From: Micractinium sp. NFX-FRZ
Lineage: Eukaryota; Chlorophyta; Trebouxiophyceae; Chlorellales; Chlorellaceae
Reading direction: 5' to 3'
Assembly: GCA_029339195.1 (NCBI GenBank)
Contig: JAPTJF010000166.1
Location: 1-64,000, forward strand
Length of the DNA stretch: 64,000 nt
Part shown: piece by piece, positions 10,414 through 64,000 of the stretch
Layout: each line of letters opens with the position of its first letter
Position numbering within the stretch: position 1 is the stretch's first letter
Made by a program: the position numbers and the translations under genes
The notes under the pieces: model-generated
What the model saw: only the letters and a program-made list of their open reading frames with translations
What the model was told of the DNA's origin: nothing
The model's database searches: none

Positions 10414-13400
10414 TTAGCCGGTGTTCTGCATGCCGGCCGCAATGCCCTGCATGGACAGGAGGCAGCGGGGACGGAGCCAAGCCAGCTTTGTCAGTGCACA
10501 GGCACCAGCAACAGCTATAAAGTACACGGTGCGCTGCAATTACTGGGGTGCACCTCAAGTAACCCCCGGCGGATGGGCAGAAAGTATGCAAGAACATCAA
10601 CGACGGGCAGGTAATACAAGCTGCCCAGGGAGGCCCTCCCACGCACCTTCATGGTGATGATCAGCGTGTCCTCCACGCCCCCAATGAAGGGGTGCGGGTT
10701 TGCATCGCCGCGGCTCATCAGCGCCAGCGCCTTCTCCGAGGGCTTGTAGTTCTCCGGCACAATCTCCTCCAGGGGCTTGCCTGCCTCCAGGGCGCGCAGC
10801 GTCTTCAGGCAGCTCACCTGCAGGGGGGACAGAACGAGGGGGTGGGGGTGGGGGTGGCAAAGGGGCAGGCATGATGAGCCGAGTGAGCCTGGGGACGACT
10901 TTCCTCCATGGGCTTGCCCGCCAGCGTCTCCAGGGGCACAACGTCTGCAGACAGCTCAACTGCAGAGGGGATCAGGGCGAGAGGCAGGAGGCCAGGGGAC
11001 GGGGCGGCAGAGGAGTGGACAGGAGGTGCTGTGAGCTAACTGCCTGGCAGGGAGCACACGCCTGTAGGCAGATGGTGCAAGCACCCGCAGGCCCAGGTCC
11101 CTTGGTGGGAATTGACCAGTTTTAGATGGTCACCAGCTGGCAGCCGAGCAGCAACGCCAGGCCACCCAACAACCGCGAGCAGCTGAGCGCGCGCCAGCCG
11201 GGCCGCACCTGCAGGATGTTGAGCGGTGCGACGTAGGGCGCGCGCAGCTGCAGCTTCTGCTGCAGGAAGGCCGTGGAGCTGGAGCTCAGCAGCCGGCTGT
11301 GCTTCATGATCTGCAGGGCGCACGGGAAGGAATGCGGTGTGTGAGGTCAAGGAGGTGGAAACGTAAGACCAAAAACGCCCACAAGTCAAAACGCATACAC
11401 ACACAGTCTAGTGGCTGCATATGTGGGATGTGTGGATTGGCTGCGTCAGCGACACCCGGAGAGAGCCCGCCATCGACTTTCTGTCAGACAAGTTGACACG
11501 GTACGATCACTGTCTCCAGGCCTGTCCTCCGCATTGCCTTTCTTCATCTTATTAATAAGGCACCCTTAATTCTAAACAAATGAGCTTCCACAGGCATGAC
11601 CAGCAGATATAGGCATCTGAACACGCTTTCTCGTTCTCACCGTCAGCAGCGCGCGCTCCGTCTCATCAAACTTGACCAGCAGTGCATCGCCCAGCCCGTG
11701 CAGCTCGGGCTCCACCAGCGCACGCTCATACCTGCATCCATACAAACGGGATGGTGCACGCGTGTAGGAGACGTGAACGAGTTGCCAAGCACCCCCAGGA
11801 GGCAAGCGATGCCGGGAGGCAAGTGATCAGCGCACCGCACACTCCCTCCTCTATCAGCGGCTGCCGGCCAAGCACACGCTACAGCCTGCCTCGTTCGTCT
11901 TGCCGCCGGGGGCGCAGCACTGCGCCCGTGAGGGTGTCCCTGATCATGTCTTCCCGGTCGAGACCACATACGCGCAGGTCTGGCTGGGCAAACACCGCCT
12001 GCAAGGCACACAACAACGCGCCCCGCTGCGCTGGGCGCCTTGAGCCTCAAGGCATCCTGTGCCACTCACATCTTCACCACGCGTGGGTCCGCCTTGGCAA
12101 ACACCATCTCCAGCATATCCAGGGTCACGCGGAAGAACATCCAGTTGGTGTACATGTCCTGCAGCGGGGGCAGGAAACGAGGGAAACGGCATGACAGAAA
12201 GCAAGCACGAAGCGAACGATGAAGACGCGAATCAAGGCACGGCAGGCCCGCGCCAGAGAGGCAGACGTGGGTGCAAGCTGGGCATTGAGGCAAGAGCAAG
12301 GGCAGGGCAAGCATCGATGGCGCTCCACCATGCCTATCCAGCAAGTCCGCCCTCCCGTCTCTTCACGCTCTCATTTCCCACCTGCAGCAGCTCCAGCTTG
12401 CCCGCCTCAATCATCGAGGCCAGCGCCTCGCCTACGCCCAGCCACACGGGCAGGTGGAAGCGGACCTGCGGGTAGGAGCAGGGAACATCAAGTTATTGGC
12501 TCTGTTGCTGACTTTCAAACAACAACCACAGACACCTCATGGAGCCGCCTCACCAACCGAGAGTAGTAACATAACCAACCCCTGCTGCCCACCTGTGTCC
12601 AGGCAAAGATCCAGGGGATGGCGCGCAGCGTGTCGATTGAGCCGTGGGAGCGGCGCTTGGCGGGGCGGGATCCAATGTTCATGCGCCCCAGCTCATTCAC
12701 TGCACACTCACAACAGTCAAGAGGAATGGAGGGAGCAGCATGAGGGAACCAGGGGAACCGAGATTGGGGGCGAAGCGCCTGGGAAGGAGGGGCAATGCTA
12801 ATGCAAATACGGCAGTCTCACCGACTGTCACCGAACCAACCCACCTGGCGTGATGGCCTGGAACAGGGAGACAAAGCGTGGGTCGTCCCGCACCACTGCG
12901 CGGTACGCATCGCACGACATGTTTGCCATATCGTTCATCGTGTCGCGCCACAGCTGCAGGGCAATGACACACAAACACAGGTCAACGCAAGATTATTGAC
13001 AGAAGAGGCCAGAACTCGTGCGCATCCAGGGTATACCTGGCAGCGGCACAGGGACGGGCCCTTGATCCAGGCAGCTTGAACAACAGGCGCCATAACCACT
13101 GGACTCAGCCGACAACAAAAGAAACAACAAAGGGGCAGCTGCCTGACAATGCGCAGCCCTATCCCCTGCAAGATCACCTGCGGTGGCTCCTTGGTGGGTG
13201 CCAGGGTGGCCTCCAGCACAGCCGAGGTGTACCTGCAAGCAAAGCAAAACACAGGGACAACAATAGCTCAACTGCTGTTTGCGTGTGAAACGTGCTGCAT
13301 GCATGGGGTGCAAAGACTTGACCAGTGCAGTGCACAAGAGGGCACAGCTTTGCGCACTGCAGGACAGGCAAGGCCAAGCCCAAGAGCACAGGGGCATCAC

Positions 13401-61800: not shown

Positions 61801-64000
61801 GCTGGCCAAGAGTCGGTTGCCACATGGGAAGCTACAGCCCGGCTGGCTGCTGTACTGTTGGCACGTTGCTCTCTCAGTGCGGTGTTGATTGCGGCAAGCC
61901 AGCATGGCTCTGCATGCCGCTGTTCAGCTGGTCTTGAAGTTTGCTTTTTTTGAGAGGGCTTGCCCGGCCTGTGTGGCACTACGTAGTAGACTCACCTGCA
62001 ATGCCTGCAGGCCGGCGTCAAGTGCGGACAATGCTGCCACTGACGCAAGTGTGACTCGTGCATGGTTCATTGCTTGCTTCACTTCTTCATTGCAGGTCGG
62101 CCTCAAGTATGGCCTGCCGCTGCTGTCGCCGGTGGATGACGCGGGCGTGTTCACGGACGAGGCAGGGCCCTTTGCAGGCCTGCAGGTCCAGGGCGATGGA
62201 AATGAGGCGGTGGTGCAGGTGCGGCGCAGCAGTATGCGTATTAGCTGGACTTTGCGGTGTCAGTGCAGGGAGCACGCAACATGCACTGTGCCCGTTGCTT
62301 GATAGCCAAAGGGGAGGAAGTGCGGGCGCCAACTCCGGATGGACCAGCCTGCGATCATGGCGCACCATATGTGGCTTCCTGTCTGTGCAGGCCCTGGCTG
62401 CGGCGGGTGTGCTGCTTAAGGAGGAGAAGTATGCGCACAAGTACCCGTATGACTGGCGGACCAAGAAGCCCACCATCTTCCGTGCCACTGACCAGGTGGG
62501 TGCTCAGCACCAGTGCTGGGGGAGGGGTGGATTTTGTTCAGGTGCGATTGTATGAGCTTTGCATGCACTCAGTACGAAGCCCACCAGCTTCTGTGTCCCA
62601 GACCAGGAGCGCTCTTCCGTGCATATCCTGAACTATCTTCTGTGCATATCCAGAACTGATGCATCGCTTTGCCGGGTAGATTGCTTGAGTAGAAGCCAAG
62701 CGCATGTACTTCAGCGTGCCGTTGTTCCCCCCACCCCCTCCCCGCCTGCCCTGCTCCATCGTGTTGCAGTGGTTTGCCTCTGTTGAGGGCTTCCGCTCCG
62801 CTGCCCTGGACGCCATCAGCGGCGTGCACTGGATCCCAGCGTCGGGCGAGAACCGCATCACCGCCATGACAGAGGGCCGGTCGGACTGGTGCATCTCGCG
62901 GCAGCGCAAGTGGGGCGTGCCCATCCCCGTCTTCTACTATGTTGATTCGGGTGCGCAGGGCAGGGCAAGCAGACTTTGGCAGCAAGGCAGTCGATCTGGC
63001 GGCTGTGTCCCCTTTGTGCCAGCTGCCTGCGAGCTGCCTGTCAAGGTTTCAAAGGCAGCTGTACGGCCTTTTCTTACCTTAGCACTCTGTGCAGGTGGGA
63101 TGCTGCCTGCCTTTCTTGCAATTCAGTAAACACGCCGTGCCGCCTGACATGCTGTGCTGCGCAGGGGAGCCGCTGTTGACAGAGGAGACGATCGAGCACG
63201 TGACCCAGGTTGTGGCGCAGCATGGCAGCAATGCCTGGTGGCAGATGGATATTGCTGAGCTGCTGCCTGAGCACCTCAGAGCAGGCAAGTGCGGAGAGAT
63301 ACATGTCCTCTGCTGGAAGACATGCAGCGTACTCCAGATGGCAGCAGCTGCTAGCTCTGCCATGGTGCTGCCTGCTTGGTCGCCATGTTGATGCCTACGA
63401 ACAATTAGTCTGTTGTGTTAGCGCAGGCCTGGATAACATTGTAGGGGCAGGGGTCGGAGGGGCCACGCCGCTGTATGCTGCTGCTGGACAATGGCGATAA
63501 ACTTCTGCACGCTGTTTTGCAAAGCACGGTGCTGTTACCTCAACCATTCAATGCTGTGCTGCTCCTGCAGAGGCGTCCAAGCTGCGGCGGGGCGAGGACA
63601 CAATGGATGTGTGGTTTGACAGTGGCAGCAGCTGGGCGGGCGTGCTGGGAAGTGACGAGGCGCTCAACTACCCGGCAGACTTGTACCTCGAGGTGGGTTG
63701 GCGGGTAGGGATGGATTGCATTATACAGCTGTGCCTGCAAGTGGATGGCTGAATTTTTGGGTGGGAATGCAATCAACGTTGTGTCTGGATTTGAGTGGGG
63801 AAGATTGCATGTTGCGTAAGGAAGGAAAGCTGAACGGGTGCTGCACACCTCCAGGACGTGGGCAGGGATACTTACACCTCGGCAGGTGCATCCCCCTGCT
63901 ATTGAAGCTTACATCAGTGTACTGTGCACTTGCCTGTGCGTTGTGTTCAGGGGTCCGACCAGCACCGCGGCTGGTTCCAGTCATCGCTGCTGACCAGCGT
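58898..64000 (+). CDS. Isoleucyl-tRNA synthetase, organellar (bacterial type), 3' partial
   Basis: Charges tRNA-Ile. Exons: 58898-59039, 59164-59300, 59504-59614, 59831-59899, 60111-60217, 60379-60489, 60640-60761, 60995-61134, 61359-61468, 61639-61783, 62096-62218, 62391-62495, 62770-62950, 63165-63284, 63571-63692, 63951 to the edge. The first 40 residues are basic with Arg, Leu, Ala and no acid until the end, as in an organelle targeting peptide. Class I motifs: [20 protein letters not shown] (HIGH at about 110), [12 protein letters not shown], the editing-domain marks [14 protein letters not shown] and [45 protein letters not shown] and [19 protein letters not shown] and the anticodon-binding domain lie beyond the window. 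The intron 63285-63570 starts with GC. Confidence 0.96.
62010..62045 (+). pseudogene. Ghost exon: copy of the start of exon 62096-62218
   Basis: TGCAGGCCGGCGTCAAGTGC at about 62016-62035 resembles TGCAGGTCGGCCTCAAGTAT at 62091-62110, acceptor included. It lies in the intron just upstream. Confidence 0.65.
62570..62660 (+). pseudogene. Ghost exon: copy of the end of exon 62391-62495
   Basis: ACGAAGCCCACCAGCTTCTG then TG-C-CAGACCAGG (about 62574-62607) resembles AAGAAGCCCACCATCTTCCG then TGCCACTGACCAGG of the real exon end (62463-62496). The following 50 bp hold a further short tandem repeat with TCTTC-GTGCATATCC. Confidence 0.7.

Follow-up and report, generated by a model that had tools for sequence, protein, structure and literature searches.

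Analysis of the first 64,000 nucleotides (nt) of contig JAPTJF010000166.1 of the green alga Micractinium sp. NFX-FRZ (hereafter the window, read on the forward strand) reveals that introns of several unrelated genes carry decayed copies of the edge of the exon next to them. These copies, which we call ghosts, lie at stepped distances from their sources and account for nearly all of the extra length of the introns carrying them. Our tentative reading, which we hold at close to even confidence, is that they were left behind by local tandem duplications of about 107 bp (79–142 bp) which straddled a splice junction, were sometimes repeated and then decayed.

The window holds 11 gene models with 112 exons and 101 introns, giving 202 pairs of an intron and an adjoining exon edge. 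Using a local Smith-Waterman score of at least 16 between an intron and its adjoining exon as the threshold for a match, 27 of the 202 adjacent pairs match (10 at donor and 17 at acceptor junctions) compared with 59 (0.5%) of the 11110 non-adjacent ones, and raising the threshold to 20 leaves 16 of 202 and 4 of 11110. Dinucleotide-shuffled introns, the comparison proposed in the original prediction made from the letters of this DNA, do not match equally well, giving a mean of 0.82 pairs at the same threshold and a maximum of 4 in 200 shuffles. Edge matches scoring at least 16 number 28 with the real exons, and substituting ten random exons at each junction yields none. The copies are in direct orientation, inverted matches being at the chance rate (1/202), and their source is the flanking exon, with next-nearest exons matching in 1 of 338 cases. 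A blind scan of the window found self-matches 24–37 times as often as at random offsets for distances of 20–150 nt and 4–9 times for 150–300 nt, part of this excess coming from an unrelated array of 33-bp units at 31.4 kb. With the array excluded, ungapped matches of at least 16 over the whole window at offsets of 30–700 nt comprise 32 between exon and intron, none between exons, 4 between introns (3 linked to ghosts and 1 at offset 55) and 6 in unmodelled sequence (offsets 34–56, 391 and 619).

Ghost pairs are distributed unevenly among the genes (permutation p=0.004), with 16/52 in PEPC, 4/14 in CysQ, 3/28 in MCM9, 2/30 in IleRS, 1/10 in ATG8 and 1/16 in transaldolase, and none in GCP3 (0/12), the translocator (0/18), SEH1 (0/8) and two unnamed genes (0/8 and 0/6). 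PEPC alone contributes 16 of the 27 ghost junctions. This distribution agrees with the original prediction, which had placed such copies in the first five of these genes, on both strands, and had described them as absent or rare in GCP3, translocator, SEH1 and transaldolase-like introns. In minus-strand genes 24 of 130 junctions have ghosts and in plus-strand genes 3 of 72, an imbalance dominated by PEPC which may reflect that one gene.

Exon borders were taken from predicted gene models. Models for PEPC, MCM9 and IleRS were built with a purpose-written spliced aligner guided by proteins of close relatives, and those of the other eight genes by ab initio prediction trained on the window itself, ATG8 and CysQ being set by hand. 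Predicted intron borders are GT-AG in 98 and GC-AG in 3 of 101 introns. The spliced PEPC protein matches that of Micractinium tetrahymenae at 90%, IleRS that of M. conductrix at 89% and MCM9 that of M. tetrahymenae at 75%, which marks the window as nuclear DNA from the Chlorella clade. Pfam matches support PEPC, the inositol-monophosphatase family (for the CysQ-like gene), ATG8, transaldolase, the ATP/ADP transporter and the gamma-tubulin complex; the label SEH1 is taken from the original prediction, and two models (24.6–26.5 kb and 56.3–58.6 kb) have no Pfam match. That eight models are without homology-based refinement would leave room for an artefact, whether from chance, misplaced exons or false haplotype duplication in the assembly. 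However, 21 of the 27 ghost junctions lie in the three homology-refined genes, and the non-adjacent, random-exon and shuffle controls described above speak against it. A haplotype copy would moreover stay in frame and differ mostly at third positions, which is not observed. We judge an artefact extremely unlikely.

The geometry of the copies is narrow. There are 31 matches in total, 30 of them with the source no more than 400 nt away; the 31st (offset 691) falls within the exon body and is treated as chance. Twenty-eight of the 30 ghosts reach to within 10 nt of the junction, and 21 of the 31 matches to within 5 nt, where uniform placement would give about 3 of 31. Offsets fall at 79–142 nt (first-order, n=23; mean 106, standard deviation 14.5), then at 192–243 nt and then at 326 nt. 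Counted as edge matches of at least 16, there are 21 at 75–145, 6 at 185–250 and 1 at 300–340, whereas none of the 28 lies at 145–185 or 250–300. First-order units consist of 26–70 nt of exon and 27–95 nt of intron, and their offsets are even modulo 3 (8/8/7). Ladders are also present: in CysQ intron 5 the head of one exon recurs three times, at offsets of about 125, 218 and 326 (the copy at about 125 scores only 14), and PEPC intron 11 holds two copies of one exon tail. The exon part of a ghost spans 18–90 aligned nt, the longest copy reaching about 130 nt with its intron flank (PEPC intron 24), which brings it near the upper limit of the 30–140 bp originally estimated. The estimated distance of about 80–250 bp fits nearly all ghosts (79–243 nt) but not the one at 326. 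Identities run from 0.69 to 0.97; ATG8 stands at the top, as had been noticed.

The stepped offsets are mirrored in the lengths of the introns. Median length is 344 nt for the 22 introns that contain a match and 203 nt for the 79 others (p 5e-10), and subtraction of the furthest offset on each side reduces the former value to 182 nt (interquartile range 155–230), compared with 203 nt (154–227) for copy-free introns. The difference is seen within PEPC alone (350 against 222 nt, p 0.014). The suggestion that such a process would let introns grow is supported, the length excess being equal to the offset.

Mismatches between ghosts and sources are even over codon positions (82/417, 76/417 and 87/420, or 0.197, 0.182 and 0.207), so the ghosts are not maintained as coding sequence, in agreement with the predicted decay. 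This evenness also led us to discard a diverged-haplotype misassembly. Pooled identity is 1009/1254 (0.805) with no excess heterogeneity (p 0.155), which is compatible with one period of activity, the score threshold trimming the low tail. The two kinds of splice site have fared differently. AG is still present at the exact position in 14 of 19 acceptor ghosts and within 2 nt in 16 of 19 (chance 26%), whereas GT is present at the exact position in 0 of 11 donor ghosts and within 2 nt in 2 of 11 (chance 30%); survival of either dinucleotide at the pooled identity is expected to be about 65%. The claim that the splice site is usually copied along thus holds for acceptors and fails for donors. 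Ten of the 19 ghost acceptors score at least 8.3, where the 95% level of random intronic AGs is 7.6 and the median of real sites is 10.8. Branch-point motifs are only weakly enriched.

A tandem duplication across the junction would have copied intron as well as exon, and several results weigh against it in its simplest form. A strict test of the intron half gave p<0.05 in 5 of 30 ghosts (Fisher 0.115), and an anchored test gave Fisher values of 0.31 for donors and 0.068 for acceptors. Simulation rejected simple decay in 15 of 23 cases; the mean z of the intron-half alignments was 0.57 over 23 cases, where 2.4–4.7 is expected from the bias-corrected exon-part divergence of about 0.2–0.25. The Stouffer value of the intron halves is weak, at 2.6 for the true offset against -0.9 to 1.8 for deliberately shifted offsets, and the 19 nt upstream of the 14 AG-keeping acceptor ghosts are hardly closer to their own source (0.387) than to other acceptors (0.339). 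A gapped added-score test under its strictest scoring gave Fisher values of 0.18 and 0.09. Duplicates away from junctions are also missing: every intron-intron segment scoring at least 12 at offsets 75–145 and 185–245 either is linked to ghost introns or comes from a single transaldolase intron of low complexity, and in unmodelled sequence no match of at least 14 occurs at 75–145, but four occur at 185–245.

Under the other two of its three scorings, the gapped test gave pooled Fisher values of 0.002 and 0.0003 against flanks of other introns and of 3e-5 and 1e-6 against shuffled flanks. Individually, the first scoring gave p<0.05 in 7 of 30 ghosts with other flanks and 8 of 30 with shuffled ones. 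Homology of the intron flank is clearest in six ghosts of four introns (CysQ intron 5, PEPC introns 11 and 24, and ATG8). From these alignments, tandem duplication appears well supported for a minority of ghosts and would be the economical reading for the rest. Pure tandem duplication with neutral decay, as first proposed, is kept with reservations: it failed the strict and anchored tests, was weakly supported by the Stouffer comparison of offsets, was partly rescued by the lenient gapped tests, and leaves an intron half that is individually visible in only 7 or 8 of 30 ghosts, weaker than neutral decay would leave it.

The 22 or 23 of 30 ghosts without an individually significant copied intron flank could instead be explained if only exon were copied, a piece of exon edge that stops at the junction being put into the intron through templated repair of a break, a staggered break with unrelated filler, or an RNA splicing intermediate. 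The sources of the matches are exonic, and the absence of GT at the exact position of every donor ghost would fit a copy ending at the 3' end of the exon. However, the six ghosts with intron flank do not conform to this, and neither the constant offset nor the ladder is explained. The offsets of ghosts with a detected flank overlap those of ghosts lacking one, an argument for a single process behind both. We consider copying limited to exons unlikely.

It is also possible, though we consider it somewhat unlikely, that the tandem duplications are old and that their exon parts have been kept recognisable by gene conversion from the exon, or by selection on ghost 3' sites as decoy or alternative sites, while the intron parts drifted. 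This would account for the similarity that ends at the junction, for the missing intron-only pairs, and for the ghost acceptors that score above the 95% level of random intronic AGs yet do not share the tract of their source. In addition, by our calculation, AG would survive in about 40% of cases, fewer than the number observed, if decay had been as fast as the intron halves require (about 0.37 per copy). However, at the exon-part identity the AG survival expected by chance is high enough that no selection is needed. Furthermore, the ghost donors are dead, mismatches have no coding pattern, and conversion should have dragged some flank along.

Random tandem duplication acting everywhere might be seen only beside exons thanks to the conserved exon copy: exon parts decay on one side only and stay visible longer, and at lower thresholds unmodelled sequence is slightly richer in matches at short than at long offsets. 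At present intron lengths there are 13680 possible unit starts for intron-only duplicates against 8686 for junction-straddling ones with the observed exon share. Simulation indicates that 46–78% of intron-only duplicates would be detectable at a score of at least 14 at the inferred divergence, and a uniform process would by extrapolation from present intron lengths leave an estimated 17–29 intron-only pairs, of which none is found independent of ghosts beyond the one low-complexity intron. The empty 75–145 band of unmodelled sequence speaks against such a process too. An apparent intron-intron excess at offsets 75–145 was followed up and traced to that intron and to ghost-linked segments. C-rich low-complexity repeats in it (49592–49754) have a spacing like the ghost offset and make naive counts too high. 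Since intron halves are below neutral expectation and intron-only duplications are missing, plain random duplication is insufficient, and we judge it very unlikely. The bias toward exon-intron borders that was originally suspected is thus supported. Either the process favours junctions, or exon constraint or conversion has preserved what is visible.

In the junction-straddling duplication that we prefer, a unit of about 107 bp would be duplicated in tandem together with the splice junction, and each event would add one unit to the intron, with some junctions duplicated two or three times. Splicing would stay at the junction beside the intact exon, and the other copy, stranded in the intron, would decay free of coding constraint, its 5' site being lost and its 3' site tolerated. 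The bias toward junctions may be mechanistic or due to survival. The step of about 107 bp might come from repair of staggered nicks or breaks, which is a guess. In a bolder version, duplication would be specific to the lineage, targeted to exon edges and coupled to splicing or transcription, with a fixed step of about 107 bp; it would be the main route of intron lengthening in this alga and would leave live decoy 3' sites but dead 5' sites. We regard this version as possible although doubtful.

Table 1. Ghosts identified in the window (source positions lie in the flanking exon; offsets in nt)
Ghost	Position	Strand	Source	Offset	Identity	Remarks
PEPC acceptor	10902–10958	-	10765–10816	142	0.88	exon 10647–10817; intron flank homologous too
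PEPC donor	11970–12003	-	12079–12112	109	0.76	
PEPC acceptor	14398–14441	-	14300–14345	96	0.82	
PEPC acceptor	15722–15747	-	15601–15626	121	0.88	strong acceptor site retained
PEPC donor	15896–15921	-	16113–16138	217	0.81	ladder step 2
PEPC donor	16001–16039	-	16103–16141	102	0.82	step 1; intron flank homologous
PEPC acceptor-side	16272–16289	-	16166–16183	106	0.94	step 1; 18 nt; starts 17 nt into exon
PEPC acceptor	16348–16386	-	16156–16194	192	0.72	step 2
PEPC donor	16467–16513	-	16558–16611	91	0.85	
PEPC acceptor	17093–17118	-	16987–17013	105	0.88	
PEPC acceptor	17500–17530	-	17405–17435	95	0.90	strongest acceptor site among ghosts
PEPC donor-side	18086–18111	-	18214–18239	128	0.85	ends 22 nt before junction
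PEPC acceptor	18470–18522	-	18336–18388	134	0.77	
PEPC donor	18695–18741	-	18929–18973	234	0.78	weaker step at offset 95, score 15
PEPC acceptor	19219–19258	-	19004–19043	215	0.72	
PEPC acceptor	19572–19639	-	19461–19528	111	0.69	
PEPC donor	20825–20861	-	20904–20938	79	0.83	
PEPC acceptor	21054–21089	-	20954–20990	99	0.78	
CysQ-like acceptor	27386–27433	-	27168–27215	218	0.77	in ladder of source and three copies; intron flanks homologous
CysQ-like acceptor	27482–27536	-	27153–27210	326	0.85	in ladder with 27386–27433
CysQ-like donor	27723–27762	-	27830–27869	107	0.90	intron-side homology not significant
CysQ-like acceptor	28124–28155	-	28015–28045	110	0.81	
CysQ-like donor	28431–28464	-	28527–28560	96	0.79	
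MCM9 acceptor	37311–37408	-	37076–37165	243	0.72	short intermediate copy near offset 107
MCM9 donor	39201–39245	-	39305–39349	104	0.87	highest score
MCM9 acceptor	40115–40186	-	40010–40079	107	0.77	
Transaldolase acceptor	51191–51227	+	51303–51339	112	0.76	
ATG8 acceptor	52484–52523	-	52394–52430	93	0.97	intron flank homologous (16-nt exact match)
IleRS acceptor	62013–62069	+	62098–62153	85	0.76	
IleRS donor	62576–62606	+	62465–62495	111	0.84	

Some further observations concern the genes in Table 1 and other repeats. In MCM9, the relative-guided and ab initio models differ at one or both ends of exons 36725–36881, 36929–37165, 38032–38387 and 40004–40079, the acceptor at 37165 needed for one ghost being among these ends, and the relative-guided model has GC-AG borders in 2 of 14 introns. 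An insert in C. vulgaris PEPC proved unrelated to a ghost. A 23-bp tandem repeat (62613–62657) adjoins the IleRS donor ghost. The array at 31357–31700 is built of 33-bp units, with periods of 66 and 99 bp showing as well; its minus-strand translation is a repeat of 11 residues, which may be LEA-like. A perfect 34-bp tandem duplication is present at 5734–5801, outside the gene models and below that part of the gamma-tubulin complex gene which was modelled.

Little is understood of how established introns lengthen when no transposon is involved. For 22 of the 101 introns here, countable steps account for the extra length, each with a recognisable source, so intron growth becomes datable and testable by comparison of strains. 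The intact stranded 3' sites and dead stranded 5' sites form a natural experiment on the extra splice signals that a genome tolerates.

Among known systems, introners supply new intron sequence, mostly in lineages that evolve fast, green algae among them (PMC9860276). An introner family would be shared by many introns. No such family was found here: the best intron-intron matches among the window introns, judged with no formal null, are isolated pairs, several of low complexity. A mobile-element origin was rejected, as the introns share no family. Neointrons of Daphnia contain direct repeats of short length, some of which repeat the ends of exons, and these are attributed to staggered double-strand-break repair (PMC4202315). 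Direct repeats that include the end of the adjacent exon, and a proposed lengthening of introns, are shared with the ghosts. However, exon-shared repeats in Daphnia are 4–12 bp long and lie at the opposite end of new introns (PMC4202315), whereas here they span 18–90 aligned nt and are near their source, and the introns holding them are not known to be new. Direct repeats around unrelated sequence, as in Daphnia, would fit the 22 or 23 of 30 ghosts without significant flank, not the ladder cases. Intron gain through local tandem duplication, as described in PMC3443670, likewise duplicates exon sequence and splice signals locally, but there the intron itself is the duplicated exon segment, while here existing introns are enlarged. 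Rogers-type intron gain expects an offset equal to the intron length and a copy abutting the opposite splice site, a combination seen in 0 of 31 matches. Closest is the potato RdRp gene, which has one tandem duplication across an intron-exon boundary (PMC4974935). It is a direct tandem copy of an intron tail and exon head, with acceptor-side geometry and with intact splicing signals in both copies. Its characteristic feature, a direct exon-edge copy adjacent to its source adding one length unit, is present here, and a copied intron flank is individually visible in a minority of the ghosts. The potato case is a single one with near-identical copies, in which a new spliced intron was made, whereas the window holds many decayed copies on donor and acceptor sides, with stepped offsets and no sign of a new intron. 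We found no report of dense, stepped exon-edge copies in the literature searched, as far as its accessible text goes, although a prior description is possible, for example in the genome paper of Chlorella variabilis NC64A. What is new here, in comparison with these systems, is the stepped offsets and the fact that their subtraction restores the length of copy-free introns.

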